Source: a virus. From it: DNA of 25,586 nt. This document shows, in pieces, positions 386 to 18,627 of this stretch. The notes below the pieces were generated by a model, which saw only the letters and a program-made list of their open reading frames with translations, had not been told where the DNA came from and searched no databases. The translations under genes were made by a program, and so were the position numbers. Positions within the stretch are counted from its first letter, which is position 1. Every line of letters begins with the position of its first letter. The stretch covers positions 1 through 25,586 of the IMG/VR virus record IMGVR_UViG_3300020220_005017. One strand, written 5' to 3'.

Positions 386-1572
386 TATTTATTATAAATA
401 TGGATGAGTTTATCCTCATATGTATCCATATAGGCTATAGAGATATCAAATATATCTAATTCAAATTCACCTACTTCACCTGACTGAGTTATTATATCTG
501 AAAACTGGGCTATGGTTTTAAATGATTCTTGGTTTAATTGTTTAGCATCAAATTCAATTATAATATCATTATTAGGTGCATCATGTCCTATTAATTTAAT
601 TTTATCTTTTAAATTAATTAAAGTATGTTTTTGTTCTAAATCTCTATAACTTGATCCTATAATATCCATTTCATCTTCAATGTAAATATTATTACACCAT
701 GGTTCTAAAATAGCTAATGTTTCTAAATTACAATTACTAACTACAAATCCAATATCATACTTATGAGGTATAATTGGTTTCATATAAACATCATGTTTAA
801 CAAAATGACCCCATTTACGAATAAAATTTCTAGCATTTTTATTTGTAGTATGAAGCCATTCATCACTATTTTTACCTGCTGCCCCACCAGCATATTTATT
901 AAATCTACTACCACGGCTAGTAAAATGATAAACTAAACCATCCCATGATTGAATTACTTTATAACCTTTTAAAACAAAACGATTAAATAAATCACTATCT
1001 TCTTTAGATTGAGGAGCAAATAATTCATCATGTCCTCCTATTGCTAAATAATCTGATTTATACATACACCAAGGAGCAAATATACCTTCAGTGAATTTAT
1101 CTTTATTTAACTGTTCTAATTCTATAAATCTAGGTTTAGTAATATCATAGTTAAACTCTTCTATTTCATTACCCCAATTCATAGTTATTTTTTCTGGTCC
1201 TTGAGGATGTAATGGTGGCTCAACTCTAGTAGCACTTACTACTATACCTGGTTTAAGATGTTTTAAAATGTTTTTATCTAAATTAGGAGCAGCTACCATA
1301 TCAGCATGAAATGCAAATATAATTTCTGTTCTAGCCATCTCAATACCCTTATCAAACATACCTACAATACCAATACGCTCTGGTCCTGGATTGTAATATG
1401 TGATTAGATCTTCATCATTGAGTGATTTAACCCATTCTTTAGTTCCATCTATGCTGGCGTCATCTAAAATTAATATCTCATGTTTAGTTTCTAAATCACA
1501 AATTGATTTATATGCTAGTTGTAGAAACTCTAAATTATTTCTACTTGGTAATACAAATGTTATTTTATCCAT
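385..1572 (-). CDS. Family 2 (GT-A) glycosyltransferase with C-terminal extension
   Basis: This 395-residue protein begins with a GT2 fold: strand FVLPSRNN near residues 6-13, the nucleotide-binding pair LDDAS (36-40), a metal-site equivalent FHADM (88-92), and the ED pair of the catalytic-base region (SKEDSDLFNRF, about 189-199). It should transfer a sugar from a nucleotide-sugar donor; donor and acceptor cannot be read from the sequence. Residues about 271-395 are an extra domain I do not recognise. The start overlaps the stop of the upstream epimerase gene by 8 bases, and the stop overlaps the next start by one base, so it belongs to the same transcript. No membrane segment is visible, unlike many polysaccharide synthases of this family. 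Confidence 0.87.
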   Translation of the reverse strand: MDKITFVLPSRNNLEFLQLAYKSICDLETKHEILILDDASIDGTKEWVKSLNDEDLITYYNPGPERIGIVGMFDKGIEMARTEIIFAFHADMVAAPNLDKNILKHLKPGIVVSATRVEPPLHPQGPEKITMNWGNEIEEFNYDITKPRFIELEQLNKDKFTEGIFAPWCMYKSDYLAIGGHDELFAPQSKEDSDLFNRFVLKGYKVIQSWDGLVYHFTSRGSRFNKYAGGAAGKNSDEWLHTTNKNARNFIRKWGHFVKHDVYMKPIIPHKYDIGFVVSNCNLETLAILEPWCNNIYIEDEMDIIGSSYRDLEQKHTLINLKDKIKLIGHDAPNNDIIIEFDAKQLNQESFKTIAQFSDIITQSGEVGEFELDIFDISIAYMDTYEDKLIHIYNK

Positions 1573-2410
1573 TTAAATACTCTTTAATATAATCTTCAAT
1601 ATTATGTTTTGGTTCCCAATCTAATAATTCTTTAGCTAATGTATCAGTACATAATGTTATCTCAGCTTCACCTGGTTTATTTTCTTTATATTCTACTTCT
1701 TGTCCAAACATATCAGCTATATCTTTAACTGAGTGATTTTTACCTCTTCCAAGTTCAAATACTTGCCCCCATGATTGCTTTTCATTTATTAATAATAAAG
1801 CATTTACTATATCATTAATATGAGTGAAGTCTCTACGTTTAGTTCCATCACCATATATAATTAAGGATTGATGTTCTTCAATTTGTTTTTCCCAAGCACC
1901 AATTAAAGTAGTATAACCACCTTCTTTTAAATGATAAGGACCATACACATTGTAAAAACGAGCTATAGATGCTTTTAATTTATAATGTGATTGAAACAAT
2001 AAAATAATTTCTTCACCTATATCTTTACTAAATGTATAAGGATTCTTAAACTTACCTGAATGATGAGAACTACTACCAGCATAAATTAAAGGTATATTAT
2101 TATTAGAACAATATTTAGCTATTTTAAATGTGGCATTAGCATTAGTAGTAAAATAATCATATGGTTCTTTAAATGATGGTTGTATTCTAGCTATAGCTGC
2201 CATATGATAAACAATATCAAAGTCACCCCATGGTGAATAATCATCTATGTTTCTAATATCAAATTCAATATATTGAGCACCGGGTTGGTGATTTGATTTT
2301 AAACCAGTGTTATAATTATCAACTGATGTTACTTTATGTCCTTGTTCAAGAAATGTTTTAATTAAGTTAGTACCTACAAAACCAGCTCCACCTGTGACTA
2401 ATATATTCAT
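1565..2410 (-). CDS. NAD-dependent sugar epimerase/dehydratase (extended SDR)
   Basis: This 281-residue extended short-chain dehydrogenase carries the NAD-binding GGAGFVG at residues 7-13, an AGSSS strand around 111-115 and the catalytic pair YTFSK (Tyr125, Lys129). The family includes UDP-glucose 4-epimerase, dTDP-glucose 4,6-dehydratase and UDP-glucuronate decarboxylase, all acting on nucleotide sugars in the cytoplasm. At 281 residues it is somewhat shorter than the usual 310-340. The exact substrate cannot be assigned. It lies three bases after a GT-A-type gene and overlaps the next GT2 gene, so it probably supplies a donor sugar for the transferases around it. A second SDR gene lies at 11828-12823. 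Confidence 0.9.
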   Translation of the reverse strand: MNILVTGGAGFVGTNLIKTFLEQGHKVTSVDNYNTGLKSNHQPGAQYIEFDIRNIDDYSPWGDFDIVYHMAAIARIQPSFKEPYDYFTTNANATFKIAKYCSNNNIPLIYAGSSSHHSGKFKNPYTFSKDIGEEIILLFQSHYKLKASIARFYNVYGPYHLKEGGYTTLIGAWEKQIEEHQSLIIYGDGTKRRDFTHINDIVNALLLINEKQSWGQVFELGRGKNHSVKDIADMFGQEVEYKENKPGEAEITLCTDTLAKELLDWEPKHNIEDYIKEYLNG

Positions 2411-3115: not shown

Positions 3116-3330
3116 ATTTCATTTTCTTTAAATACCTCTACACATAATACATTTTTATCATTTATCATAATCCATGTTCCATCTTTTTGTCTAAACTTAG
3201 TGAATTGTCCTTGTCTTATAGATGTTGAATCTATATTATGAAATGTTCGTTTTTCACCTCCAACAAAATGAATTATTTGAGTAACATATTCACCTATATC
3301 ATTAACTGAGGATTTGAGATTAGTATTCAT
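3112..3330 (-). CDS. Small hypothetical phage protein
   Basis: This 72-residue soluble protein is rich in predicted beta strand (FTKFRQKDGTWIMINDKNV, then LCVEVF), so it may be a small barrel. I chose the ATG at 3330 because it overlaps the TAA of the aminotransferase gene (TAATG), a junction used repeatedly here. An ATG two codons earlier (3336) is almost as good, while the longest frame would need a TTG start at 3351. The stop forms an ATGA overlap with the next gene. It has no sugar-enzyme features despite lying between an aminotransferase and a glycosyltransferase, so it may be a phage regulator or accessory protein. Function unknown. Confidence 0.72.
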   Translation of the reverse strand: MNTNLKSSVNDIGEYVTQIIHFVGGEKRTFHNIDSTSIRQGQFTKFRQKDGTWIMINDKNVLCVEVFKENEI

Positions 3331-4511
3331 TACCATCCTTGTTTTATGCAATCAACAATGTATTGTCTCTCTTCTTCTGTTACCCACCATCCAACTGGAA
3401 GTGAAGATAATTTTCTAACAGTCTTATCTAGGTTAGGTAATATTGACTTATATTCTTTAACACAACTATGAATATCATTACGTTCATGTACTTGGGATGT
3501 AGCAATTCCTTTATCAGCCATATAGCGTTGGAAATCATCTTTACGATCTACTAATATACTATAAATCCAAAATGATGACTCTCTATCCTTATGACGTTTA
3601 AGTAAAGTTAAACCAGGAACATCTTTTAATGCTTCATCATAATACGCAGCATTTTCTTTATGTTTTGAAATTATATCATCAATACATTTAAAATTCTCTA
3701 ATCCAATAGCAGCATTAATATCATTCATATGAAACTTAAATCCCCATTCTAGAATATCAGCTTCACATCTAAAATCTTTACGATTACCTTCTCTATCAAT
3801 ACCATACCACCTTAATAACTTACCTCTTTTATATAACTCATCATGTGGTACAAATAAAATACCCCCATCACCTGATGTCACATGCTTAATTGCTTGTAAA
3901 CTAAAAGTACAAATATTACCATGTGTACCAATTAATTTACCTTTATACTTACTACCCATTGCATGAGCACAATCCTCAATAATAGCTGGTTTGAAACCAT
4001 ATAACCTATTAGCTTGGTTTTGAATTTCAGCTAAACGATCTAAATCAACTGGGTAACCACCCCAATGTACTACAAATATAGCTTTAGTTTTAGGAGTAAT
4101 TTTTCTAGCTAAATCATCTAGATCCATATTTAATGTCTCTGGATCAATATCAACCCATTTGATTTTAAAATTATTAGCTAATATAGGCCAGTTAGTAGCT
4201 GTACAAGTTAAAGCTGTAGTTAATACTTCATCTCCATCTTCCATTCCAGGCCATTTAGACTCATACATAGCATATCCATCAACTCCAACATTATGGATTG
4301 ATGGTTTTTTAAGCATATGTAATGCTAAATGTTCAGCTGATGTAGCGGCATTAACTGTTAAGATTTTATCATGTCTAAAGTACTTTTTCAAATGTTCCTC
4401 AAACTCATCAACCACTGGGCCCTGACCAATAAAACCACTTTTAAGTACCTGAGTTACCTTTTCAGGAGCTGAATCAGCCATATGTACTTTAAATAAGGGT
4501 ATATTTTTCAT
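3330..4511 (-). CDS. DegT/DnrJ/EryC1-type PLP sugar aminotransferase
   Basis: This 393-residue protein matches the family of PLP-dependent aminotransferases that convert a keto nucleotide sugar to an amino sugar with glutamate as donor. Visible features are the N-terminal GFIGQGPVVDEFE (26-38), the cofactor-binding EDCAHAMG (Asp180), and the Schiff-base lysine in SLQAIKHVTSGDGG (Lys209). The catalytic set looks intact. An insertion of roughly 18-20 residues around 69-92 separates the usual helix from the DGDEV strand, which may alter substrate access. It follows the GT-B-like gene by 7 bases. In the pathway it would act after a dehydrogenase or dehydratase has made a keto sugar, supplying the amino group that the GNAT and PIG-L enzymes next door could process. 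Confidence 0.93.
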   Translation of the reverse strand: MKNIPLFKVHMADSAPEKVTQVLKSGFIGQGPVVDEFEEHLKKYFRHDKILTVNAATSAEHLALHMLKKPSIHNVGVDGYAMYESKWPGMEDGDEVLTTALTCTATNWPILANNFKIKWVDIDPETLNMDLDDLARKITPKTKAIFVVHWGGYPVDLDRLAEIQNQANRLYGFKPAIIEDCAHAMGSKYKGKLIGTHGNICTFSLQAIKHVTSGDGGILFVPHDELYKRGKLLRWYGIDREGNRKDFRCEADILEWGFKFHMNDINAAIGLENFKCIDDIISKHKENAAYYDEALKDVPGLTLLKRHKDRESSFWIYSILVDRKDDFQRYMADKGIATSQVHERNDIHSCVKEYKSILPNLDKTVRKLSSLPVGWWVTEEERQYIVDCIKQGW

Positions 4512-4518
4512 AAATTAT

Positions 4519-5457
4519 TTATTTAAATAATGATTCTAATATATTATTCATTTTATTAAGAAACACTTCTTCTGAGTAGTATTGATGGTATAATTCTTTT
4601 GTTTCTGTAGAACATTTATTGTAAAATTCCTCATCTGTTTTTAATTTATTAGCTAATAATCTAGCACTATATATATCTCCGTCTGGTACAGATAAATTAG
4701 GATGTAAATATTTTTGAGTGTTAACATTATCATAACCTATACATGGAATACCTAAATATGAGCAATTTAAATTAAAAGTACCAGCAGCCGCTGTTCCTAA
4801 TTGCACACCATATTTCTTTTTTGACAATTCAAAAATCCAATCCTTCCAAACTATCCATGGTAAATGATTTATATCTAAACTTACTTCTTCAGGTTTCATT
4901 CTTCCTGTTGTTGGAGCTGCTATATCATCTGATAATATTTTACCTACAACATATGAATCAATTCCTCTATAAGCTGTTACCCAATTTCCTCCAATCATAA
5001 CTCCACTACGATTTTCCAAATTAGTATTGATAAAATCAGTTATCATTAAACTAGGCATTAATTCACACCTAGTGTCAGTCATTCCTTTATAATAAAGCAA
5101 ATCATGATCATTATGGCAAAATATAATATCCATTTGCTGTAAAAAATTATAATACCATATTTGAGATTGAATAGAATCACCTTGCCAATACCAATATGTA
5201 CTTTCTTGCATAAATGCTGTTTTTTTACATACTTGTTTAAAATGATCAGCTATAGATAATTCAACTAATTTTTGTTTATTTTTTGGGACAATAATAATTC
5301 CAACATCATATAAATTATTAGGTAATTTCATTAAATCATAAACTGGATGATGAGTAGCTTCTAATGAGCACATCCAAGCTTGATCAGTACGCATATTAGG
5401 ATTATTTCTAGGTATTAAACCTGTATATCCTCCTTCTGTGAAAAATCCTATTCTCAT
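4519..5457 (-). CDS. GT-B-like glycosyltransferase (putative)
   Basis: This 312-residue soluble protein has no strict family signature. It begins with a Rossmann-like strand and glycine loop (MRIGFFTEGGYTG), and its C-terminal half contains YGVQLGTAAAGTFNLNCSYL followed by GIPCIGYD, a layout typical of the donor-binding domain of GT-B glycosyltransferases (glycine-rich loop, helix, then a G-x-P strand). SVPDGDIYSARLLANKL near the end resembles the closing helix of such domains. I infer a glycosyltransferase, possibly acting on an amino sugar made by the neighbouring enzymes. Its start overlaps the PIG-L gene stop (ATGA), tying the two together translationally. Confidence 0.62.
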   Translation of the reverse strand: MRIGFFTEGGYTGLIPRNNPNMRTDQAWMCSLEATHHPVYDLMKLPNNLYDVGIIIVPKNKQKLVELSIADHFKQVCKKTAFMQESTYWYWQGDSIQSQIWYYNFLQQMDIIFCHNDHDLLYYKGMTDTRCELMPSLMITDFINTNLENRSGVMIGGNWVTAYRGIDSYVVGKILSDDIAAPTTGRMKPEEVSLDINHLPWIVWKDWIFELSKKKYGVQLGTAAAGTFNLNCSYLGIPCIGYDNVNTQKYLHPNLSVPDGDIYSARLLANKLKTDEEFYNKCSTETKELYHQYYSEEVFLNKMNNILESLFK

Positions 5458-6086
5458 AAAAATATTTGTTTGAATTTAAATTGTTCTATCCTACCTATTT
5501 TTCTTTTTGAGCATCTAAAATTAGAATGAAATTCATTTAATGTGTTAAGTTTAAAATAAGTTTTATGAATTTGTGATTTAAATTCTCCTAACATTTTTAT
5601 CTTTTTATCATAAACTTCATTTATATCTACAAATACATTTGGTATCCATGTTTCTAATGTACTTGGAGAATAATACTCTATTAATGATATAGGATATAAT
5701 CTTGTCAAAGCATATCCTAAATTACATACTATTTTATGTTCAAAATGACTATCAAATTGAGAAGGTGTAATTATACAACTATATTGATTTTTATGTATAA
5801 AATTATTTTCTATATAATTAATCCATTCATCTTCTCCTAATTCTTTTAAAAATTTATTTTGAGTAAAATATAAAGAAAAATTAGTAGAATCAGATACACT
5901 CCATACATTTTTTACTTCTTGTAAACGACTTTTACTTGTTGTTGAATCACAATCACCACCTTGAGTTAAACAAAGTATATCAAAATGAGTATCTTTATAT
6001 TTTAGAATAGTTCCAGCCATACTATATTCAACATCATCTGGATGAGGACTAATACAAAATATGCTATCAAAATTTAAAAATTTCAT
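5454..6086 (-). CDS. PIG-L/LmbE-family N-acetyl-sugar deacetylase
   Basis: This 210-residue protein carries the family hallmark PHPDD at residues 14-18 and a second metal site in DSHFEHK (Asp112, His114, His117). Together these give the zinc ligands His15, Asp18 and His117 expected of LmbE/PIG-L deacetylases, and the CLTQGGDCDSTTSKSR segment (39-54) matches the conserved loop. The family removes acetyl groups from N-acetylglucosamine-type sugars (GPI, mycothiol, bacillithiol and polysaccharide pathways). Here it sits between a GNAT-type acyltransferase (TAATG overlap) and a GT-B-like enzyme (ATGA overlap), which suggests it exposes an amine that is then re-acylated. Length is normal and all ligands are present. 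Confidence 0.9.
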   Translation of the reverse strand: MKFLNFDSIFCISPHPDDVEYSMAGTILKYKDTHFDILCLTQGGDCDSTTSKSRLQEVKNVWSVSDSTNFSLYFTQNKFLKELGEDEWINYIENNFIHKNQYSCIITPSQFDSHFEHKIVCNLGYALTRLYPISLIEYYSPSTLETWIPNVFVDINEVYDKKIKMLGEFKSQIHKTYFKLNTLNEFHSNFRCSKRKIGRIEQFKFKQIFL

Positions 6087-7021
6087 TAAAATACATCATT
6101 ATCACCTAAAGTCACATGCCATTTACTAGTATCAGCTTTTAAAAAATCTATATCTGAATGTAAAATGAAACGGCTTGATAATTCACTTTTATTAAATTTA
6201 AGTGTTGTTAATATTTCTTGTTCTTGTTTATTATAACACCATATATTAATAATATCAACTCCTAACTCATAACCTTTATTAATAGACAGTTTAATTATAT
6301 CAATAAAATCTTCTATTTGGTTATATCCAAAATCCACAATATGTAACTTATTCTCATCTTTATACTTAAAATGTTTTAATACAATAAAATTATTAAAAGG
6401 AGAAGATTTAAATATTAAATAATTAATGTTAGGTCTATCAATAAATCTCCAATTTAGATAATTAGAGTCTTTATCAATATAAAAATCATATTTAGATAAA
6501 AATTGTTTTATTTTAATATCATCTTCATTTGAAAATTTATCTACAAATGTATATTCATTTTTAAGTTCATATTTCACTTTAACATCTGTAATTTCAAAAA
6601 AAGGAATATTATTTAATTCTTGCCAACCTACTTTTCTATGACCTGGTATAGCATTATCATTTGGTATTCCCATTAGAATAACATCTTTGGTTCTTATATT
6701 TTCCATAATATGTTTTCCTAATTTAGTGAAAAAACCATTATTACCATATTCAGGATGAGTCATCCCATTATTTGCTAAATATGATTTATTATTTTTATTT
6801 TTATAAACTATATTTAAAGGAAATAGACCATATGATGCTACAACTTTATCTAAATCTTTAATAACATATAATTCATTTTTCTTATAAGAGGAATTATTAT
6901 ACCAATAAGCCCAATCTATGGTATATTCAGGACGTAAATTAAAACAAGATTTAAACAAATCCATCCATTTATTAATACTATTTTCTGATATATCAATTTT
7001 TTCTAGAGTATACTTATCCAT
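6086..7021 (-). CDS. GNAT-family N-acyltransferase
   Basis: This 311-residue protein has features of the two-domain GNAT proteins often found in polysaccharide clusters. The N-terminal part has a VVASYGLFPLNI strand (60-71) and an acyl-CoA loop region MTHPEYGNNGFFTKLGKHIM (87-106), where YGNNGFF occupies the pyrophosphate-binding position. A later YLNWRFIDRP segment is typical of this subgroup. The reaction would be transfer of an acyl group from acyl-CoA to an amine, plausibly the amino sugar made by the DegT enzyme or exposed by the PIG-L enzyme next to it. It starts four bases after the MaoC-type gene, which could supply an unusual acyl-CoA. The family is fairly clear; the acyl group and acceptor are inferred. 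Confidence 0.77.
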   Translation of the reverse strand: MDKYTLEKIDISENSINKWMDLFKSCFNLRPEYTIDWAYWYNNSSYKKNELYVIKDLDKVVASYGLFPLNIVYKNKNNKSYLANNGMTHPEYGNNGFFTKLGKHIMENIRTKDVILMGIPNDNAIPGHRKVGWQELNNIPFFEITDVKVKYELKNEYTFVDKFSNEDDIKIKQFLSKYDFYIDKDSNYLNWRFIDRPNINYLIFKSSPFNNFIVLKHFKYKDENKLHIVDFGYNQIEDFIDIIKLSINKGYELGVDIINIWCYNKQEQEILTTLKFNKSELSSRFILHSDIDFLKADTSKWHVTLGDNDVF

Positions 7022-7025
7022 TATT

Positions 7026-7409
7026 TTATATTTTTAAAGTAGCATTTCCTATGATTGTATACACATCTTGATCTTTTATATTAGTTTGTAAATAAATAAT
7101 ATTTTTTTTATGATCAACATTAATTACTTTAACTTCAGCTATATATTCAGTATCTGGGTACATAGGTTTTAAAAATTTAAAATTTTGTTCCATATAAGCA
7201 CATCCATTTCCTGGAAATGTTGTTCCAAATATTTTAGAAAAAATAGTTACTGATAAAAATCCATGCATGATTGGTTTTAAAAATACTGTTGATGCAGCAT
7301 ATTCTTCATCATGATGAATTGGATTTGTATCACCTGATAGTTTTATAAAATCTAAAACTTGTTCTTTAGTGAATGAAAATGTTTCTGTGTATATGTATCC
7401 TATATTCAT
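7026..7409 (-). CDS. MaoC-type (R)-specific enoyl-CoA hydratase-like protein
   Basis: This 127-residue protein is a single hot-dog domain. The hydratase motif is clear: SGDTNPIHHDEEYA (25-38) has the catalytic Asp27 and His32 pair, followed by IMHGFLS (47-53) and the FKFLKPMYPDTEY strand pair. MaoC-type enzymes hydrate 2-enoyl-CoA to (R)-3-hydroxyacyl-CoA. Such a gene is unexpected in a phage. Being directly upstream of the GNAT gene, it could make the 3-hydroxyacyl group used to modify an amino sugar; this is inference. Alternatively it may have been recruited for another dehydration in sugar synthesis. A 43-base gap precedes it, one of the longest in the window. Confidence 0.88.
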   Translation of the reverse strand: MNIGYIYTETFSFTKEQVLDFIKLSGDTNPIHHDEEYAASTVFLKPIMHGFLSVTIFSKIFGTTFPGNGCAYMEQNFKFLKPMYPDTEYIAEVKVINVDHKKNIIYLQTNIKDQDVYTIIGNATLKI

Positions 7410-7414
7410 AATAT

Positions 7415-7446
7415 GAAATATAATGATTTATTTTGTGATTACCAAA
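7415..7446 (-). promoter_or_regulatory. Weak Bacteroidetes-like promoter candidate
   Basis: In the 43-base gap upstream of the MaoC-type gene the minus strand reads TTTG (7446-7443), 20 bases, then TATATTTC (7422-7415). This approximates the Bacteroidetes housekeeping promoter (TTTG, about 19-20 bases, TAnnTTTG) with one mismatch in the -7 box. The same stretch can also be read as TTGGTA, 17 bases, TATATT, a poor sigma-70 match. Initiation here would give an almost leaderless transcript. In DNA this AT-rich such a match can easily arise by chance. Confidence 0.2.
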
Positions 7447-7452
7447 AATAGT

Positions 7453-8424
7453 TTATAAAATATCTATCCAAGTTTTAAATTTATAATTTGGATTAAATAA
7501 ATTATTTAAATTATCACTACTAGCTTGATATGCTTTTTGATACCACCCATGTTGTTTTCTTAATAATCCTGTATTAGTTGGATCAATACCTTCTTCTCCT
7601 TTCACTTTATAACGTTTGCTATGATGTTTTCTATTATGTACTAACAATATATTCCTAATAATAAATTGAGGTATATTACCTAATAATTTATTAGTCATAA
7701 ACATAAATGCTGTATCTTCATGAACAAAAAACATTCCCTTAGGTATATTAGCTCCTGCTTTAATTACTTCAGATGATATTATTAAACCACATCCATTAAA
7801 TTTATGTTGGGGTAATATTATAACTTCTGGTGACTCTGTTCTATTATTAATTTCATCCATTTCTTTTTCACTCATAGTATATCTTAAACTCCACCAATTG
7901 GTAGTATCACCCTCAATAAATGGTTTATCAGTGAAATCAGGATGTTCAAGTAATTTCCAACTATTATCCCACATTTTACATCCACCAAAGAAAGATAAAT
8001 ATTTGGGTGTTTGACTTTTTACTTGTTGATGTAATTGATCTAATATAATAAACATTTGTTTTGGGGCTAACATATCTGATTCACCCCAAACTAATATATC
8101 TACTTGTTCACAATATTTGTCATTAAATTCTCTTCTATAATCAGCTATTGAATATATCTTATCTGAATAACATTCCCAATTTACTCTATATCCATCATCA
8201 AATAGATCAATTATTGGTTTCATTAATTCATTTATTACTAATTCAAATTCTTCTTTAGTACCATCAAATTTTTCTAGTTGTTGTCCTTGTACTATAGCAA
8301 AATCAATTATAATTTTATCTTTATTATAATTATCTATAGCTGATTTAATAGTTGAAATATATTCTTTAATAATTTTAACTTCATACCATTGTACTAAGCA
8401 GCCTATAGCAAATTTATTTTCCAT
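7453..8424 (-). CDS. Putative GT-A-type glycosyltransferase
   Basis: This 323-residue soluble protein has no family signature I can name with confidence. A buried strand ending in an acidic motif, ILVWGESDMLAP (110-121), looks like the metal-binding loop of a GT-A enzyme (E-x-D in place of D-x-D). A later strand-turn, KFNGCGLIISSEV, and the acidic FFVHEDTAFM resemble the acceptor-side and catalytic-base motifs of GT2 proteins. The C-terminus is basic and aromatic. Its start lies inside the 3' end of the methyltransferase gene (11-base overlap), in the context TTAAGTTATG. A glycosyltransferase role is inferred from these motifs and from its neighbours. Confidence 0.6.
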   Translation of the reverse strand: MENKFAIGCLVQWYEVKIIKEYISTIKSAIDNYNKDKIIIDFAIVQGQQLEKFDGTKEEFELVINELMKPIIDLFDDGYRVNWECYSDKIYSIADYRREFNDKYCEQVDILVWGESDMLAPKQMFIILDQLHQQVKSQTPKYLSFFGGCKMWDNSWKLLEHPDFTDKPFIEGDTTNWWSLRYTMSEKEMDEINNRTESPEVIILPQHKFNGCGLIISSEVIKAGANIPKGMFFVHEDTAFMFMTNKLLGNIPQFIIRNILLVHNRKHHSKRYKVKGEEGIDPTNTGLLRKQHGWYQKAYQASSDNLNNLFNPNYKFKTWIDIL

Positions 8425-13245: not shown

Positions 13246-13964
13246 TTTTTAAAATTATTATTTAATATAGTTAAAAACTCTGAAGATATCAAACTATATA
13301 ATCCTTTATCTTGTAATTTTTTATATATATCCTCTTGATCTGGTTTAAATGATAATACAATTATAGGCTTAATAGCTGAGTCATATCTTAGTTGAGCATG
13401 AGTCATTCCAACATTCCATCTTTGATTAATAGAAGTCATTTTATGTTTTATTGGAGAGTTTTTTCTTAAAAATCCTATAATCACTTCATCACTACTAACT
13501 TTAACTTCTTTATTTTCTTCTAATGTGTCAACAATATATTGGAGTGTTGGTTTGCAATTTTTATTAAAATAAATACTACCACAATTCCATTCTCTAGTTC
13601 CTACATACTCAGCTCCAGCTACATCACCATCAAATTGAGGAAATACCATAGGTGATATCTGCCAACTGTCATGATCATGTAACCAAAATTCTTCATTAAT
13701 AATACCTTTATCAATTAATTCTAAAGCACCATACCAAAAGTTATGAAAACCACTCCATTCACATATATTAGTTAATAAATAGGATTCAATTCTATTATAA
13801 TTAAATTTAAAATTAGTACCAAGAATAATATCTTCTCTCTTCCATCCTAACCTTAAACTATTATCTATTTGAGCTTTAAAATATCTAAACAAGTCCCCAT
13901 CATTCCATCTATTAGCTCCATGGTTATTAGTTTTAATTTGATTATATACTATAACATTCTTCAT
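13242..13964 (-). CDS. Putative DxD glycosyltransferase (GT-A)
   Basis: This 240-residue soluble protein has an EEFWLHDHDSW segment (91-101) whose D-x-D (Asp97, Asp99) sits at the end of a hydrophobic strand, as in metal-dependent GT-A transferases. It is followed by GDVAGAEYVG, then a WNCGSIYFNK strand like the conserved N/C-G-x-x-x-F turn of GT8/GT2-like enzymes, and a late INQRWNVGM segment. I infer a nucleotide-sugar-dependent transferase of a poorly described family. Its ATG overlaps the UDP-sugar dehydrogenase stop by one base (TAATG), and its stop overlaps the next start (ATGA). Confidence 0.65.
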   Translation of the reverse strand: MKNVIVYNQIKTNNHGANRWNDGDLFRYFKAQIDNSLRLGWKREDIILGTNFKFNYNRIESYLLTNICEWSGFHNFWYGALELIDKGIINEEFWLHDHDSWQISPMVFPQFDGDVAGAEYVGTREWNCGSIYFNKNCKPTLQYIVDTLEENKEVKVSSDEVIIGFLRKNSPIKHKMTSINQRWNVGMTHAQLRYDSAIKPIIVLSFKPDQEDIYKKLQDKGLYSLISSEFLTILNNNFKK

Positions 13965-14809
13965 TAATAGGGAATTGGTGTTGGAGTAATTGCTCTACCA
14001 ACTAAATTTTTCCAATCTTGTTCTGGTCTAACTTCTAAATTTGTTTTCCAAGCAGCTTCAAGTGTATTCATATTAACACCTAATTCTTTACCCATTGTGA
14101 TTAATGCATTAATGTCTTTAGGAAAGCATGTCCCACCAAATCCTAATTTACCATCATGGCCAGGAACATTAGTATGTGAATTACCAATACGAGGATCAGA
14201 TACAAATCCTTCTAATGCTTTATTCCAATCAGCACCTAATATTTCAGACATTCTATAAAATTCATTTACAACAGATACTTTAACAGCTAAAAATGTATTG
14301 GCCATATATTTAATAAACTCTGCTGTTGTTGTATCAGTTAATATATAATGTTTTTGTCCAAATCGAACTTTAAATAATTCTAATACTTTTTCTGTGTGTT
14401 GAGTATCACCTCCAATCACTATTCTAGATTGAGTCAACATATCCAGTTTGGCGGTTTTTTCAGTTAAAAACTCAGGACAAAACACTATATTAAATTTATG
14501 TTTATTAATTAATGATTTTGTGGTACCTGGTAATACAGTTGATTTTAAAATAAAAATAGCATTTGTGTTATATAAACCTATATTACTAAAGAAATTTTCA
14601 ATATATGAAATATCTTGTTCACCACTTTCTTTCATTGGGGTTGGTAAACATACAAATATAAAATCTTGAGTTAATACTTCTAATAATGTATGGGTTGATT
14701 TTATAGGATTAATATCAAATATTTTAACATCAGCCATAGGTAAAAAAGCATATGCTTGAGACTCACCTACAAAACCATTTCCAATAATTCCTACTTTAAA
14801 TTTGCTCAT
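13964..14809 (-). CDS. UDP-glucose/GDP-mannose-type 6-dehydrogenase, short form
   Basis: This 281-residue enzyme has the NAD-binding GIIGNGFVGE (7-16), FVCLPTPM, the KSTVLPGTT loop, the CPEFLTE strand, the central-domain EFIKYMANT helix with its catalytic Lys, and the active-site cysteine in FGGTCFPKD (224-232, Cys228). The reaction is two-step oxidation of a nucleotide sugar C6 to the uronic acid. The usual C-terminal nucleotide-binding domain is absent: the protein ends about 50 residues after the cysteine, against 390-440 residues for typical members. I chose the ATG at 14809; a longer frame would need a TTG at 14839 and overlap the upstream gene more. It is intact otherwise, so this looks like a real short form rather than a broken gene. 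Confidence 0.88.
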   Translation of the reverse strand: MSKFKVGIIGNGFVGESQAYAFLPMADVKIFDINPIKSTHTLLEVLTQDFIFVCLPTPMKESGEQDISYIENFFSNIGLYNTNAIFILKSTVLPGTTKSLINKHKFNIVFCPEFLTEKTAKLDMLTQSRIVIGGDTQHTEKVLELFKVRFGQKHYILTDTTTAEFIKYMANTFLAVKVSVVNEFYRMSEILGADWNKALEGFVSDPRIGNSHTNVPGHDGKLGFGGTCFPKDINALITMGKELGVNMNTLEAAWKTNLEVRPEQDWKNLVGRAITPTPIPY

Positions 14810-15422
14810 AAAACTTATTTTGTTTTTCTTGTCTATCAATTGTTTTAGGATGTATTAAATCATATCCTTGAGGTAAGTTAGCTATTGTTTTCCATCCTTG
14901 TAAACGCTCATGTACCTTATTTTTCCATTGAATATCCTTTTTATTAATACATATACGAGTTTGGTAATCTGGATAATTGATCCAATCATTATCATCTATA
15001 AACCATCTCCATTTATCAATATGATTACGAGTCAATCCTTCAACTGTATTAATACGAGGTAAAGATATAACATCAACTAAACCTTTATTCATATCTAACA
15101 CACTGTGGATATTATTAGCTAATCCATCACTTAAGTATTCATCAGCATCAATAAAAAATACCCAATCACGTGTGCAATGATTTTTTAAATTATTTTTAAA
15201 TGAAGCAAAATCTTTATTTAATCCAAAATATATTCTATGATAATCAAATTTACCTCCAATATTATATTTATTAGCTACTTTTTTAACCTCATCTGTAGAT
15301 GTATTATCTAATTGAACCATTATTTCATCCTGTGGTTTAATAATAGTTACTAGTTGGTCTAGTAGATATTCTAATTCAACATGTTCATTACAAGCTGTAA
15401 TAGCAAAACTAATTGTTGACAT
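14796..15422 (-). CDS. Family 2 glycosyltransferase (WaaE/KdtX-like)
   Basis: This 208-residue GT2 protein begins SFAITACNE and has IMVQLDNTSTD (34-44) for nucleotide binding, FFIDADEYLSDG (89-100) with the D-x-D metal motif, and a C-terminal NKVHERLQGWK segment in which V-H-E marks this subgroup. The group includes the small lipopolysaccharide-core glucosyltransferases such as WaaE/KdtX. It likely transfers a hexose in the cytoplasm. It is preceded by TAAGTTATG and lies nine bases after the zinc-ribbon gene; it overlaps the dehydrogenase gene by 14 bases. At about 210 residues it is somewhat short for the family, but the core motifs are complete. Confidence 0.88.
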   Translation of the reverse strand: MSTISFAITACNEHVELEYLLDQLVTIIKPQDEIMVQLDNTSTDEVKKVANKYNIGGKFDYHRIYFGLNKDFASFKNNLKNHCTRDWVFFIDADEYLSDGLANNIHSVLDMNKGLVDVISLPRINTVEGLTRNHIDKWRWFIDDNDWINYPDYQTRICINKKDIQWKNKVHERLQGWKTIANLPQGYDLIHPKTIDRQEKQNKFYEQI

Positions 15423-15431
15423 AACTTAATT

Positions 15432-15860
15432 TTAAATTAAACCAATATAATGACAAGCCTCATCAAACTGGTCTTTAGTAAATGTTTTTAATGTCTTAGA
15501 ATCTGATTTATGTGTTGCACCTTTAAGTTTTTCTTTTTCTTCATCTGTTGTTTCTATAGCTTTAATACCTGCCCATCCCCAATTATCTTTAGTAGTACCA
15601 TTAATAAACACAGTACCTTTATCTTGTATATTAATAACTGTTGGATACCAAACTTGTTTTTTATCATCTATAAATTTAATATCTTTATATAACTCAGGCA
15701 TTACTTCTTCTGTTTGAGTCATTAACTCACTACCTTCAATCATTAATTCATTTGATGTGAATCCACAATTCATACAACTCCATATTAATATACCTTGCTG
15801 TTTATGCTCATAACAAGCATCTGATTCACAATGTGGACATGTTACTAATCTATCATTCAT
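15432..15860 (-). CDS. Zinc-ribbon protein of unknown function
   Basis: This 142-residue protein starts with a four-cysteine zinc ribbon: CPHC at 8-11 and CMNCG at 29-33, with hydrophobic strands between. The rest has a beta-rich section (WYPTVINIQDKGTVFING) and a helical C-terminus (KDQFDEACHYIGL). Zinc ribbons of this kind bind nucleic acids or proteins, but there is no catalytic motif. It is embedded between two glycosyltransferase genes, overlapping the upstream one by a base (TAATG). Similar small zinc-ribbon proteins are common in T4-like phages; here it may be regulatory or simply part of the phage core gene set. Confidence 0.78.
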   Translation of the reverse strand: MNDRLVTCPHCESDACYEHKQQGILIWSCMNCGFTSNELMIEGSELMTQTEEVMPELYKDIKFIDDKKQVWYPTVINIQDKGTVFINGTTKDNWGWAGIKAIETTDEEKEKLKGATHKSDSKTLKTFTKDQFDEACHYIGLI

Positions 15861-17191
15861 TATTCTATTTTTTTAAGTTTAGGTAAATTAAGTTTAGGTA
15901 TATCAATATTATTTACTTTTTTTAATGTTGGTAATTTAAGCTCTACTTGTTTAGGTACTTTTGATTCTAAAATATTATCTAATACTTCAGCCATTTTATC
16001 AAATGAGAAATTAGTTTTAGCAAAATGAGCTTGGCGTTTAGATTTTTCTAAATGTTTATTATAATCATTATAAACTGATTTAAAAGCATCAGCTACTTCT
16101 CCATCATTAGGAGTAAACCATTGTGATTCAGCTAATATCATATTTTTAGCTTGGGCTGATGAATGAACATTAGTTAATGTTCCTCCTACTAATGTGTTGT
16201 ATTCTGGATGTAAGAAATCTAAATGACCACTCCATTTACTAGCTATAATAGGTTTTTTAGATAAACTAAATTCAAGTAATGGTCTTCCAAATCCTTCTCC
16301 TTTAGTTAATGATACCATAGTCTTTATTTTACCATGATTATATAAATCATTTATATCTTTATCATCTAAATCACCATGTAATAAGTAAACATTTGGTAAA
16401 TCACCTTTAACTGTTTGTTTAACAGCTTCTATTTTTTTAAGTACTTCATCTCTATCCATTATTGAATTAGTAACCTGAGATGTTTTTAGAATTAATGCTG
16501 GTTTATTTCCTTTTTTATTTTTAAACATTTCTAAAAATACTTTAACCATATAACCTACATTCTTTCTATCTTCACCAATATCACCTTGTAACCAATGGCC
16601 AACAAATAAAAAACAAAAATCTTCCTCAATTTCATCTAATGCTACTACTAACTCAGTTTCTTCTAAATCATTATCATCAATATAAAAATATTTATTTAAA
16701 TCAACTCCTTCAAATAAAACCTCAACTGGTTTTTCTAATTTAACCACTCCTTCAAGTTGATTATTTTGTTTATTTCTTTTTTCAAATGATGATTGAATGA
16801 ACACTTGTTTAGCATGATTAGAAGACACTAGTGTTAAATTCATTTTATTAATACCTTCAATCCAACTTGGATCACACACAGTGGTTTCAATACCAGCTGT
16901 GATACCAATATTAAATTTACCTACTGGTTGGAATTCATTTGGCACAGTGATTTGAATCCAAACATCAGGCTGTTTAGGCAATTGAGGTTGTCTCCAAATT
17001 AAATCATATAATTTTTTATCTTCTAGATTATTTAAATCTAAAGCATTCCAAGCTGTATTTCCCCAACGTTGAGAAATAATTTTAATATCATATTTATCAT
17101 ACTTTAAAAGTGCTTTAACTATATCTCTAGATCTAGCACCATACCCAGACATTGTCTCAATAGGACAACTTATAACAATTAATGGTTTCAT
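15860..17191 (-). CDS. GT4-family glycosyltransferase with Pro/Lys/Leu tail
   Basis: This 443-residue GT-B enzyme of family GT4 has a glycine loop near the N-terminus (SGYGARSRD, 15-23), the C-terminal domain strand FCFLFVGHW (192-200), and the donor-binding E-x7-E motif GEGFGRPLLEFSL (298-310; Glu299, Glu307), followed by KPIIASKWSGHLDFL. These retaining enzymes use nucleotide sugars. After the GT domain the last 30 or so residues form a tail with repeated LPTLKK / IPKLNLPKLKK units, rich in Lys, Pro and Leu, which could be a membrane- or protein-binding element. It is preceded by TTGTTATG five bases after the stop of another GT4 gene. The two GT4 genes form the start of the carbohydrate module. 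Confidence 0.9.
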   Translation of the reverse strand: MKPLIVISCPIETMSGYGARSRDIVKALLKYDKYDIKIISQRWGNTAWNALDLNNLEDKKLYDLIWRQPQLPKQPDVWIQITVPNEFQPVGKFNIGITAGIETTVCDPSWIEGINKMNLTLVSSNHAKQVFIQSSFEKRNKQNNQLEGVVKLEKPVEVLFEGVDLNKYFYIDDNDLEETELVVALDEIEEDFCFLFVGHWLQGDIGEDRKNVGYMVKVFLEMFKNKKGNKPALILKTSQVTNSIMDRDEVLKKIEAVKQTVKGDLPNVYLLHGDLDDKDINDLYNHGKIKTMVSLTKGEGFGRPLLEFSLSKKPIIASKWSGHLDFLHPEYNTLVGGTLTNVHSSAQAKNMILAESQWFTPNDGEVADAFKSVYNDYNKHLEKSKRQAHFAKTNFSFDKMAEVLDNILESKVPKQVELKLPTLKKVNNIDIPKLNLPKLKKIE

Positions 17192-17196
17192 AACAA

Positions 17197-18627
17197 TTAA
17201 TAAACTAATTTATGACGAATATGTTTTCTTTTAAGTGGTTTTGTTTTAATTAACTCAAATTTATATCTTGGTTTCCAATTAGCTAAAACTTCATTAATAT
17301 GCTTTATAACATTTTCACTCATATTTTTAGCTGACATCATTGATTCATCTGATGTAACCCACTCATGAGCTAATTTTCCTCTACGCTCTCTTTCTTCAGT
17401 TCCCATCTCATATACTTTCATAATAGCTTCAGCAGCTTCTCTAAAATCAACTCTATCATCATATATATAAGGTGTTTGAGGAGAACCTTGAATACTTATA
17501 TTACTTGGAAATACTGGTATAGCCCATTCTCCACATTGTTTATATTTACCAAAATGGTTAGAACAAAAATCAGCATCAAAGTCAATCCACTTACCATTTT
17601 CATCTACAAAACGCATTTGGTCTTGCATACCACCTGTCACATTAGCAATAATTGGTTTACCACACATCATTGCCTCAGTTAAAGCTAATCCCCATCCTTC
17701 ATTTGATGTTAATAATATACAGACATCAGATATATTATATATTATATTAAGATCATTAGCTGGTATTTTTAAATCTGAAAAATATATTTGATTATATTGA
17801 TCATCATTAAATAATATATCACGCACAGCATATAAATCAGTACCATGCTCATCAATAGGTTGAGTATGTAATACTAAAGCACATTTATCAGCTTTTTCTT
17901 TAGACAATTTATCTAAAAATACTTTAAATGCAGCCATAGTATCAGGTACTTGTTTACGTCTAATATTTCTAGAATTAAACATTAAAACAAAATCATATTC
18001 TTTACTACCAAATAATTTTTTCTTAACCTCATTTAGTTTAGTCTTATCATCAATTGGAAAAAACATTTTTTCATTAATACCATGAGGTACATAACTTAAT
18101 ACTTTGTTTTTAACTTTATCACCTAATACTAATTTATTTATATTAAGTGTTTGTTTTGATATAGCCATTAATCCATCACATGATTCATAATATGGCTCAT
18201 TATATAATGGAGCTGGATAATCATCCCAAATGTTTAAATAGATAATAGGTATTTTTCTCCTAATTTCATTTTCAATTTGAAATAACCAAACCCAATATCT
18301 TGGATCAGTAAATATCATTAATGCATCTGGTTTTTCAATATCAATCATTTGTCTAATATACTGAGGGTCACCATATCCATTAATTGGATATAAAGTTACA
18401 CTAGCATCTTCTATACCAGCATGCTTGTTAGTATCAGCATTAATATCAAAACGTTTGCCCTGATCTGGGTGACTAATAGCACCTCCTACATTTACCCAAT
18501 TAAAATGATGAGCTGTACCAATAACAATTTCTCTAGCCATTGTGGATATACCAGATGTCATTCTAATATCATCACATAACAATAAGACTTTTTTTCTTTG
18601 TGCTTGTGGCAAATAACCTTCTTTCAT
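17197..18627 (-). CDS. GT4-family glycosyltransferase, first gene of the carbohydrate module
   Basis: This 476-residue GT-B enzyme has an N-terminal strand VLLLCDDIRMTSGIST (14-29) with the acceptor-domain glycine loop, a central YVPHGIN (179-185) at the domain junction, FNSRNIRRKQ as the phosphate-binding strand of the second domain, and the E-x7-E motif NEGWGLALTEAM (309-320; Glu310, Glu318) followed by KPIIANVTGGM. Family GT4 is retaining and uses nucleotide sugars. The C-terminus is strongly basic (KTKPLKRKHIRHKL). It follows the RHH gene after 20 bases that contain the 8-bp palindrome GTTTAAAC (18633-18640), and the start context is GTGTTATG. Confidence 0.9.
   Translation of the reverse strand: MKEGYLPQAQRKKVLLLCDDIRMTSGISTMAREIVIGTAHHFNWVNVGGAISHPDQGKRFDINADTNKHAGIEDASVTLYPINGYGDPQYIRQMIDIEKPDALMIFTDPRYWVWLFQIENEIRRKIPIIYLNIWDDYPAPLYNEPYYESCDGLMAISKQTLNINKLVLGDKVKNKVLSYVPHGINEKMFFPIDDKTKLNEVKKKLFGSKEYDFVLMFNSRNIRRKQVPDTMAAFKVFLDKLSKEKADKCALVLHTQPIDEHGTDLYAVRDILFNDDQYNQIYFSDLKIPANDLNIIYNISDVCILLTSNEGWGLALTEAMMCGKPIIANVTGGMQDQMRFVDENGKWIDFDADFCSNHFGKYKQCGEWAIPVFPSNISIQGSPQTPYIYDDRVDFREAAEAIMKVYEMGTEERERRGKLAHEWVTSDESMMSAKNMSENVIKHINEVLANWKPRYKFELIKTKPLKRKHIRHKLVY

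Follow-up and report, generated by a model that had tools for sequence, protein, structure and literature searches.

Three neighbouring genes in a viral DNA record may form an N-acyl exchange cassette within a phage glycan cluster. The stretch concerned, called the window here, is the single IMG/VR record IMGVR_UViG_3300020220_005017 in its full length of 25,586 bases, and the three genes encode a MaoC-type hydratase, a GNAT acyltransferase and a PIG-L deacetylase (MaoC, GNAT and PIG-L below). PIG-L would deacetylate an amino sugar, MaoC would make 3-hydroxyacyl-coenzyme A (CoA) and GNAT would transfer the acyl group, a reading to which we assign a probability of roughly 55%. It draws on the gene families, intact catalytic motifs, a discrete insertion, and the recurrent pairing of GNAT with PIG-L, of acyltransferases with PIG-L and, in phages, of acyltransferases with MaoC. 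The clamp loader in the window is T4-like, and the DegT aminotransferase shares 59% identity with its counterpart in Flavobacterium phage immuto (Immutovirus), which also has the surrounding glycan genes; by these sequences the phage appears to be a relative of Flavobacterium phages, and Bacteroidota are its likely host group.

The original prediction had placed five adjacent genes at 3330-7409, and all five open reading frames (MaoC, GNAT, PIG-L, the GT-B-like protein GTB312 and DegT) are indeed present on the minus strand. Their junctions are, in order, a 4-base gap (MaoC/GNAT), a 1-base overlap (GNAT/PIG-L), a 4-base overlap (PIG-L/GTB312) and a 7-base gap (GTB312/DegT). Pfam matches above curated cut-offs back four of the predicted families (MaoC, 3.9e-17; GNAT as Acetyltransf_9, 3.4e-11; PIG-L, 2.8e-10; DegT, 4.8e-77). 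GTB312 (312 residues) has no match in Pfam, PDB sequences or INPHARED phages; what backs its assignment is an AlphaFold model of moderate quality (predicted local distance difference test [pLDDT] score, 65) that matches GT-B glycosyltransferases.

The five genes are nevertheless two different things, as emerged from 60 IMG/VR loci found with DegT, against which every window gene was compared by tblastn. These loci share a frame of exonuclease, GT476, GT443, GT2_208, DegT, epimerase and GT2_395 genes, between which the content varies. In the closest relative (locus L004; DegT 94% and exonuclease 99% identical to the window), the genes for h323, GTB312 and DegT follow one another with overlaps, an arrangement that recurs in L049. 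In the window, MaoC, GNAT and PIG-L occupy precisely this h323/GTB312 boundary; 43 bases precede MaoC, and PIG-L overlaps GTB312. The guanine-cytosine (GC) content of these three genes is 22-24%, that of the whole window 27%. While DegT is in all 60 loci that it served to find, none has MaoC or a window-type GNAT. When 50 complete records of relatives were searched by family, five had PIG-L, one had Acetyltransf_9, as a short unrelated reading frame of a 595-kb phage, and MaoC was absent from all. Because h323, GTB312 and DegT are contiguous in L004 and L049, we read MaoC-GNAT-PIG-L (5454-7409) as a discrete 2-kb low-GC insert, and GTB312 and DegT as part of the lineage's own glycan cluster. 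On the same contiguity in relatives without the insert, we rejected a single operon-level pathway of five genes. The methyltransferases MT205, MT197 and MT182, which the original prediction had noted nearby, lie upstream and are unlinked to the insert, and MT205 recurs in relatives that do not have it.

Scans with GTB312 and h323 alignments added 160 viral loci, a count that includes overlapping contigs of one virus. Among approximately 76 h323-GTB312 pairs, again partly on overlapping contigs, about 27 are directly adjacent and the others lie 0.3-7.0 kb apart; PIG-L was found in 36 of the 160 loci, MaoC and window-type GNAT in none. The h323-GTB312 junction thus reads as an insertion hotspot whose cargo differs among many related phages. 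Other recurring cargo at this site (L320:8950-11451, L322, L325, L242) consists of a BshB1-like PIG-L, a short DegT-like protein, sometimes a methyltransferase, and a WbqC-family protein.

MaoC matches PF01575 with 62 bits (cut-off, 27), and its residues D27, H32 and S58, whose counterparts we take to act in the hydratase-2 active site, align with the PhaJ structure 1iq6 to give a full PhaJ-type active site. Direct protein scans of phage collections yielded no credible MaoC relative, PHROGs no matching family, and an IMG/VR pattern scan with the window MaoC no relative, while a genome scan returned generic MaoC proteins only, mostly from Actinomycetota. A degenerate, looser motif search of IMG/VR, by contrast, found 17 stretches of 11 distinct contig types, with MaoC confirmed by profile in 16 and by tblastn in the other (L415). 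In six of the 11 distinct viral contigs (the L401 group, L403/L400, L407, L409, L410 and L411), MaoC comes directly after a hexapeptide acyltransferase gene; the two genes share 14-25 bases in five of these contigs, and 1 base lies between them in L409. LpxA is the enzyme that transfers (R)-3-hydroxyacyl groups onto UDP-GlcNAc, and the partner transferases in L410 and L411 match it (1e-48); the partner in L409 belongs to the NeuD/PglB/VioB family, above the curated cut-off. MaoC beside a sugar acyltransferase is thus not peculiar to the window, and a lack of linkage in all relatives, which would have spoken against the original prediction, is not what these contigs display in spirit, since MaoC adjoins hexapeptide acyltransferases, though the partner is not GNAT. 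L403 and L411 have exo-h65-GT476-GT443-GT2_208 in common with the window, and L403 carries, along with MaoC, a PIG-L 50% identical to that of the window. Given that the window, L403 and L411 each carry MaoC differently, the lineage has it in at least three different settings. Short 'Listeria/Enterococcus phage' records match MaoC and GNAT weakly and are probably host DNA.

Some of these contigs have further features. L404:6628-11738 encodes in one run a hexapeptide acyltransferase, a methylmalonyl-CoA-mutase-family protein, a DegT-like protein, a glycosyltransferase-like protein and MaoC, with tail and lysozyme-like genes upstream; the mutase-family protein is closest to the 2-hydroxyisobutyryl-CoA mutase large subunit (4r3u) and may carry out a B12-dependent rearrangement of acyl-CoA in the making of a phage glycan. 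In L409:8998-10162, an apparent prophage, the acyltransferase-MaoC pair lies between tail-like and lysozyme/integrase-like genes and could represent lysogenic-conversion genes. L411:6549-8421 holds the LpxA-like transferase overlapping MaoC, followed by a PseB-like dehydratase, between the exonuclease and GT476 of the window lineage.

GNAT matches Acetyltransf_9 with 43.7 bits (cut-off, 25), and its model (pLDDT 86; predicted template modelling score, 0.86) is a tandem GNAT with N-myristoyltransferases and Eis-type acetyltransferases as top matches. In both of these enzyme types the C-terminal carboxylate is the catalytic base; 57 of 75 GNAT relatives end exactly in [D/N]-x-D-x-x, and the window GNAT probably uses its C-terminal carboxylate in the same way. 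No relative was found in IMG/VR by pattern scans with the window GNAT or with the bacterial GNAT alignment, or in a genome scan with the window GNAT. Full-length relatives of 18-22% identity, alignable end to end, occur on a Sinorhizobium mexicanum plasmid and in Desulfobacterota, Chloroflexota and Myxococcota. With gene names assigned by sequence reading, the order is NeuB-NeuD-GNAT-NeuC-PIG-L in S. mexicanum (L135) and NeuA-NeuB-GNAT-NeuC-PIG-L in L175, while GNAT and PIG-L are adjacent in L176 and L179 and divergent in L174. A PIG-L profile detected PIG-L within about 1.5 kb of the GNAT relative in two of three Chloroflexota, six of 30 Desulfobacterota and two of 30 Myxococcota loci, although some of the counted sequences had helped to build the profile (those of L140, L141, L168/L229, L186, L196, L231 and L238 had not). 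Since genomes have few PIG-L genes among thousands of genes, we estimate this proximity to be far above chance, and bacterial GNAT relatives appear to stand recurrently beside PIG-L in surface-glycan clusters, including legionaminic-type ones. In L177:5317-9006, read by eye, an acyl-CoA-ligase-like gene precedes the GNAT relative and a CE4-like polysaccharide deacetylase follows it, which looks again like an acyl supplier and a deacetylase around GNAT.

PIG-L matches PF02585 with 41.2 bits (cut-off, 28.2); its H15, D17 and H117 are invariant across seven diverse members, and it has relatives of 50-58% identity in other phages. A hexapeptide acyltransferase gene immediately precedes window-type PIG-L in L127/L128, L334, L354, L361 and L387, and is one gene off in L241. 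In L334, L354 and L387 the order h323, hexapeptide transferase, PIG-L corresponds to the position of MaoC, GNAT and PIG-L in the window, so that two unrelated acyltransferase folds occupy one slot beside the same deacetylase. The transferase of L127/L128 is preceded by a short-chain dehydrogenase/reductase gene whose best matches are a 3-oxoacyl-acyl carrier protein (ACP) reductase (6e-32) and an acetoacetyl-CoA reductase (2e-30), scores that cannot give the specificity of such an enzyme; the FabG-like protein of L128 is a possible second route to a 3-hydroxyacyl thioester. In L244, L247 and L266, the proteins ahead of PIG-L resemble UDP-GlcNAc 4,6-dehydratase and WbcJ (the families were tested on L247), a neighbourhood suggesting that PIG-L acts there on an N-acetyl sugar derived from UDP-GlcNAc. 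Related phages at L027:1462-8614 and L031:2904-8587 have, by sequence reading, SIS/HAD-like, cupin-like and CMP-NeuA-like cytidylyltransferase genes with PIG-L, gene sets suggestive of a nonulosonic- or 3-deoxy-D-manno-octulosonic acid-like sugar.

In the mechanism that we propose, PIG-L would strip the N-acetyl group from an N-acetylated amino sugar, either nucleotide-bound or on the growing glycan, and MaoC would hydrate a host enoyl-CoA, for example crotonyl-CoA, to (R)-3-hydroxyacyl-CoA. The tandem GNAT, its C-terminal carboxylate probably acting as the base, would then transfer the (R)-3-hydroxyacyl group to the amine so exposed, and the neighbouring glycosyltransferases would use the acylated sugar. 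Gene adjacency speaks for cooperation and says nothing of substrate: we infer the order of reactions, the acyl group, the sugar, the catalytic base and the destination, whether virion surface or host envelope. Sugars with 3-hydroxybutyramido and 3,5-dihydroxyhexanamido groups occur in flavobacterial and marine surface polysaccharides (PMC3210612, PMC6519341), so 3-hydroxyacyl chemistry is native to the host group. The N-(3-hydroxyacyl) amino sugar of the original prediction remains plausible on the linkage of MaoC with sugar acyltransferases; its amine, however, is more likely to come from PIG-L than from DegT, because GNAT-PIG-L and hexapeptide transferase-PIG-L pairs recur, whereas DegT relatives occur without MaoC or the window GNAT.

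A different source of the amine would follow if GNAT acylated a 4-amino sugar made by DegT, by a logic like that of anthrose, with PIG-L acting elsewhere. DegT is transcribed in the same direction as GNAT and lies two genes away from it, and L401-type and L403-type contigs carry a short DegT-like gene, a hexapeptide transferase and MaoC consecutively. DegT is also 53% identical to PDB 4zwv and groups with the CalS13 aminotransferase (and presumably with the related AtmS13), a kinship compatible with a lineage that makes a 4-amino sugar anyway. Yet DegT is a lineage gene, the recurrent partner of GNAT is PIG-L, and no 4,6-dehydratase motif was seen in the window, both of whose epimerase-family proteins are, by eye, without the catalytic D-E (SSSHHSG, STLAVYG); the host or an unseen phage gene could supply this enzyme. 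We consider the DegT route unlikely, while granting it a real chance. About as unlikely is that PIG-L and GNAT swap the acyl group while MaoC serves separately, for instance in remodelling host acyl-CoA or acyl-ACP, with GNAT using acetyl-CoA or another host acyl-CoA. Bacterial GNAT-PIG-L pairs without MaoC alongside agree with such a division, as do the phage MaoC genes of L402, L406 and L408, which have no acyltransferase neighbour; the 4 bases between MaoC and GNAT and the overlapping or abutting MaoC and acyltransferase genes of six other viral contigs do not.

Several observations weigh against the exchange of an N-acetyl for a 3-hydroxyacyl group. The exact MaoC-GNAT pair, whose conservation the original prediction had proposed to look for, occurs nowhere else among the phages or bacteria searched, a set without Bacteroidota genomes. 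The GNAT fold matches myristoyltransferases and acetyl-transferring Eis-type enzymes with similar quality, so it does not point to one acyl preference, and the acyl-CoA loop reads GNNGFF in the window GNAT versus RGRGLF in its relatives (usual motif, R/Q-x-x-G-x-G/A). PIG-L stands without an adjacent acyltransferase in the related phages L244, L247 and L375, and many of the pairwise identities are modest. Low GC content and a three-gene order confined to this record could also mean that the insert was acquired recently and is functionally idle, or that phage and bacterial DNA were joined in assembly; intact reading frames, overlapping junctions, conserved catalytic residues and the phage relatives of PIG-L make this very improbable.

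Among known systems, the anthrose operon brings together a hydratase, an aminotransferase, an acyltransferase and a transferase to yield a 3-hydroxyacyl 4-amino sugar, its hydratase having a crotonase fold rather than that of MaoC. Unlike the window, it has no PIG-L. In Bacillus anthracis this operon, antABCD, comprises four genes (PMC10050317). The Pseudomonas syringae viosamine island (vioA, vioB, vioS, vioR, acp, vioM, vioT), to which the original prediction had pointed, obtains its acyl group from 3-ketoacyl-ACP synthase III (KAS III), a ketoreductase and ACP and transfers it by VioB (PMC3927599), a member of the NeuD/PglB/VioB hexapeptide family by family matches. Like the window, it combines an acyl-thioester enzyme and a sugar N-acyltransferase with an aminotransferase, a methyltransferase and a glycosyltransferase, but it has no MaoC, GNAT or PIG-L, and neither KAS III, ketoreductase, ACP nor VioB is among the annotated genes of the window. 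With no 4,6-dehydratase motif visible either, the viosamine model does not fit at the level of enzymes, and we rejected a strict viosamine pathway. The Flavobacterium psychrophilum O-antigen R-group genes wfpC-G make a 3,5-dihydroxyhexanoyl amide, and swapping them changes serotype (PMC6519341); the product is, like that proposed here, a Bacteroidota surface sugar with a 3-hydroxyacyl amide, whereas the genes are bacterial and encode KAS, a ketoreductase, ACP and a PglD homologue. The legionaminic-type clusters of S. mexicanum (L135) and L175 resemble the window in a full-length GNAT relative two genes from PIG-L, beside NeuB- and NeuC-like genes, but lack MaoC and make nonulosonic acids; a nonulosonic or legionaminic acid pathway was rejected for the window, which has no NeuB-type synthase among its annotated genes. 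Phage PIG-L and aminotransferase genes are already known from the Stenotrophomonas phages DLP3/DLP5, where PIG-L, WcaG, WecE and methyltransferase genes are adjacent (PMC7326821), a run of putative sugar genes without MaoC or GNAT. Viral acyl amino sugars are known from the UDP-Vio4NAc pathway of Mimivirus, which yields an N-acylated, O-methylated amino sugar produced by the virus itself (PMC10117803), though with acetyl only, in a eukaryotic virus and by unrelated genes. In the literature searched, we found no description of an acyl-thioester-making enzyme added to a phage glycan cluster, or of its modular exchange.

Features of the window discussed in the text
Feature	Position	Strand	Basis
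MaoC-type (R)-specific enoyl-CoA hydratase (predicted)	7026..7409	-	Pfam; D27, H32, S58 align with PhaJ active-site residues
Tandem-GNAT N-acyltransferase (predicted)	6086..7021	-	Pfam, model; conserved D-x-D-x-x C-terminus
PIG-L (BshB-like) de-N-acetylase (predicted)	5454..6086	-	Pfam; HPDD and distal His metal motifs intact
GT-B-like glycosyltransferase GTB312, lineage gene	4519..5457	-	Model; directly after h323 in closest relatives
DegT/DnrJ/EryC1/StrS sugar aminotransferase, lineage gene	3330..4511	-	Pfam; 53% identity to PDB 4zwv
h323, conserved phage protein, no Pfam match, borders insertion site	7453..8424	-	
NAD-dependent sugar epimerase of conserved frame, without D-E 4,6-dehydratase motif	1565..2410	-	
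Glycosyltransferases GT443 and GT476 of conserved frame	15860..18627	-	
h323/MaoC gap, 43 bases, upstream edge of insert	7410..7452	-	Weak Bacteroidota-type promoter-like TTTG-N20-TATATTTC, by eye; likely chance in AT-rich DNA

Elsewhere in the window, positions 13964-14839 encode a UDP-sugar dehydrogenase homologue of 291 residues whose NAD-binding and central domains have matches and whose C-terminal UDP-binding domain has none. DNA glucosylation was rejected as the main purpose of the cluster, which is rich in sugar-nucleotide genes: T4 glucosyltransferases are only some of the many GT-B matches of the low-confidence GTB312 model. In the Immutovirus locus L002 (1-3975), DpdA, FolE and QueF annotations, a 7-deazaguanine DNA modification route, lie upstream of the glycan cluster.

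Descriptions of phage glycan clusters usually name glycosyltransferases together with nucleotide-sugar enzymes. To these the window adds acyl-CoA chemistry, for which related phages repeatedly have non-homologous solutions of their own. Because these phages build the same idea from other enzymes, the cassette looks like a swappable sugar-decoration module. We tentatively propose, at somewhat less than even odds, that exchangeable acyl cassettes sit at fixed sites in phages of this and other lineages, each cassette made up of MaoC, a FabG-like reductase or a 2-hydroxyisobutyryl-CoA-mutase-like enzyme together with a GNAT, hexapeptide or LpxA-like acyltransferase, and often PIG-L. If so, exchange of a 2-kb cassette at a fixed site would let a phage set the acyl decoration of its own or its host's glycan, and a swap would change the acyl group of the phage-made glycan much as O-antigen R-group genes change bacterial serotypes. 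Roles of phage glycans such as receptor masking and superinfection exclusion would then become testable.

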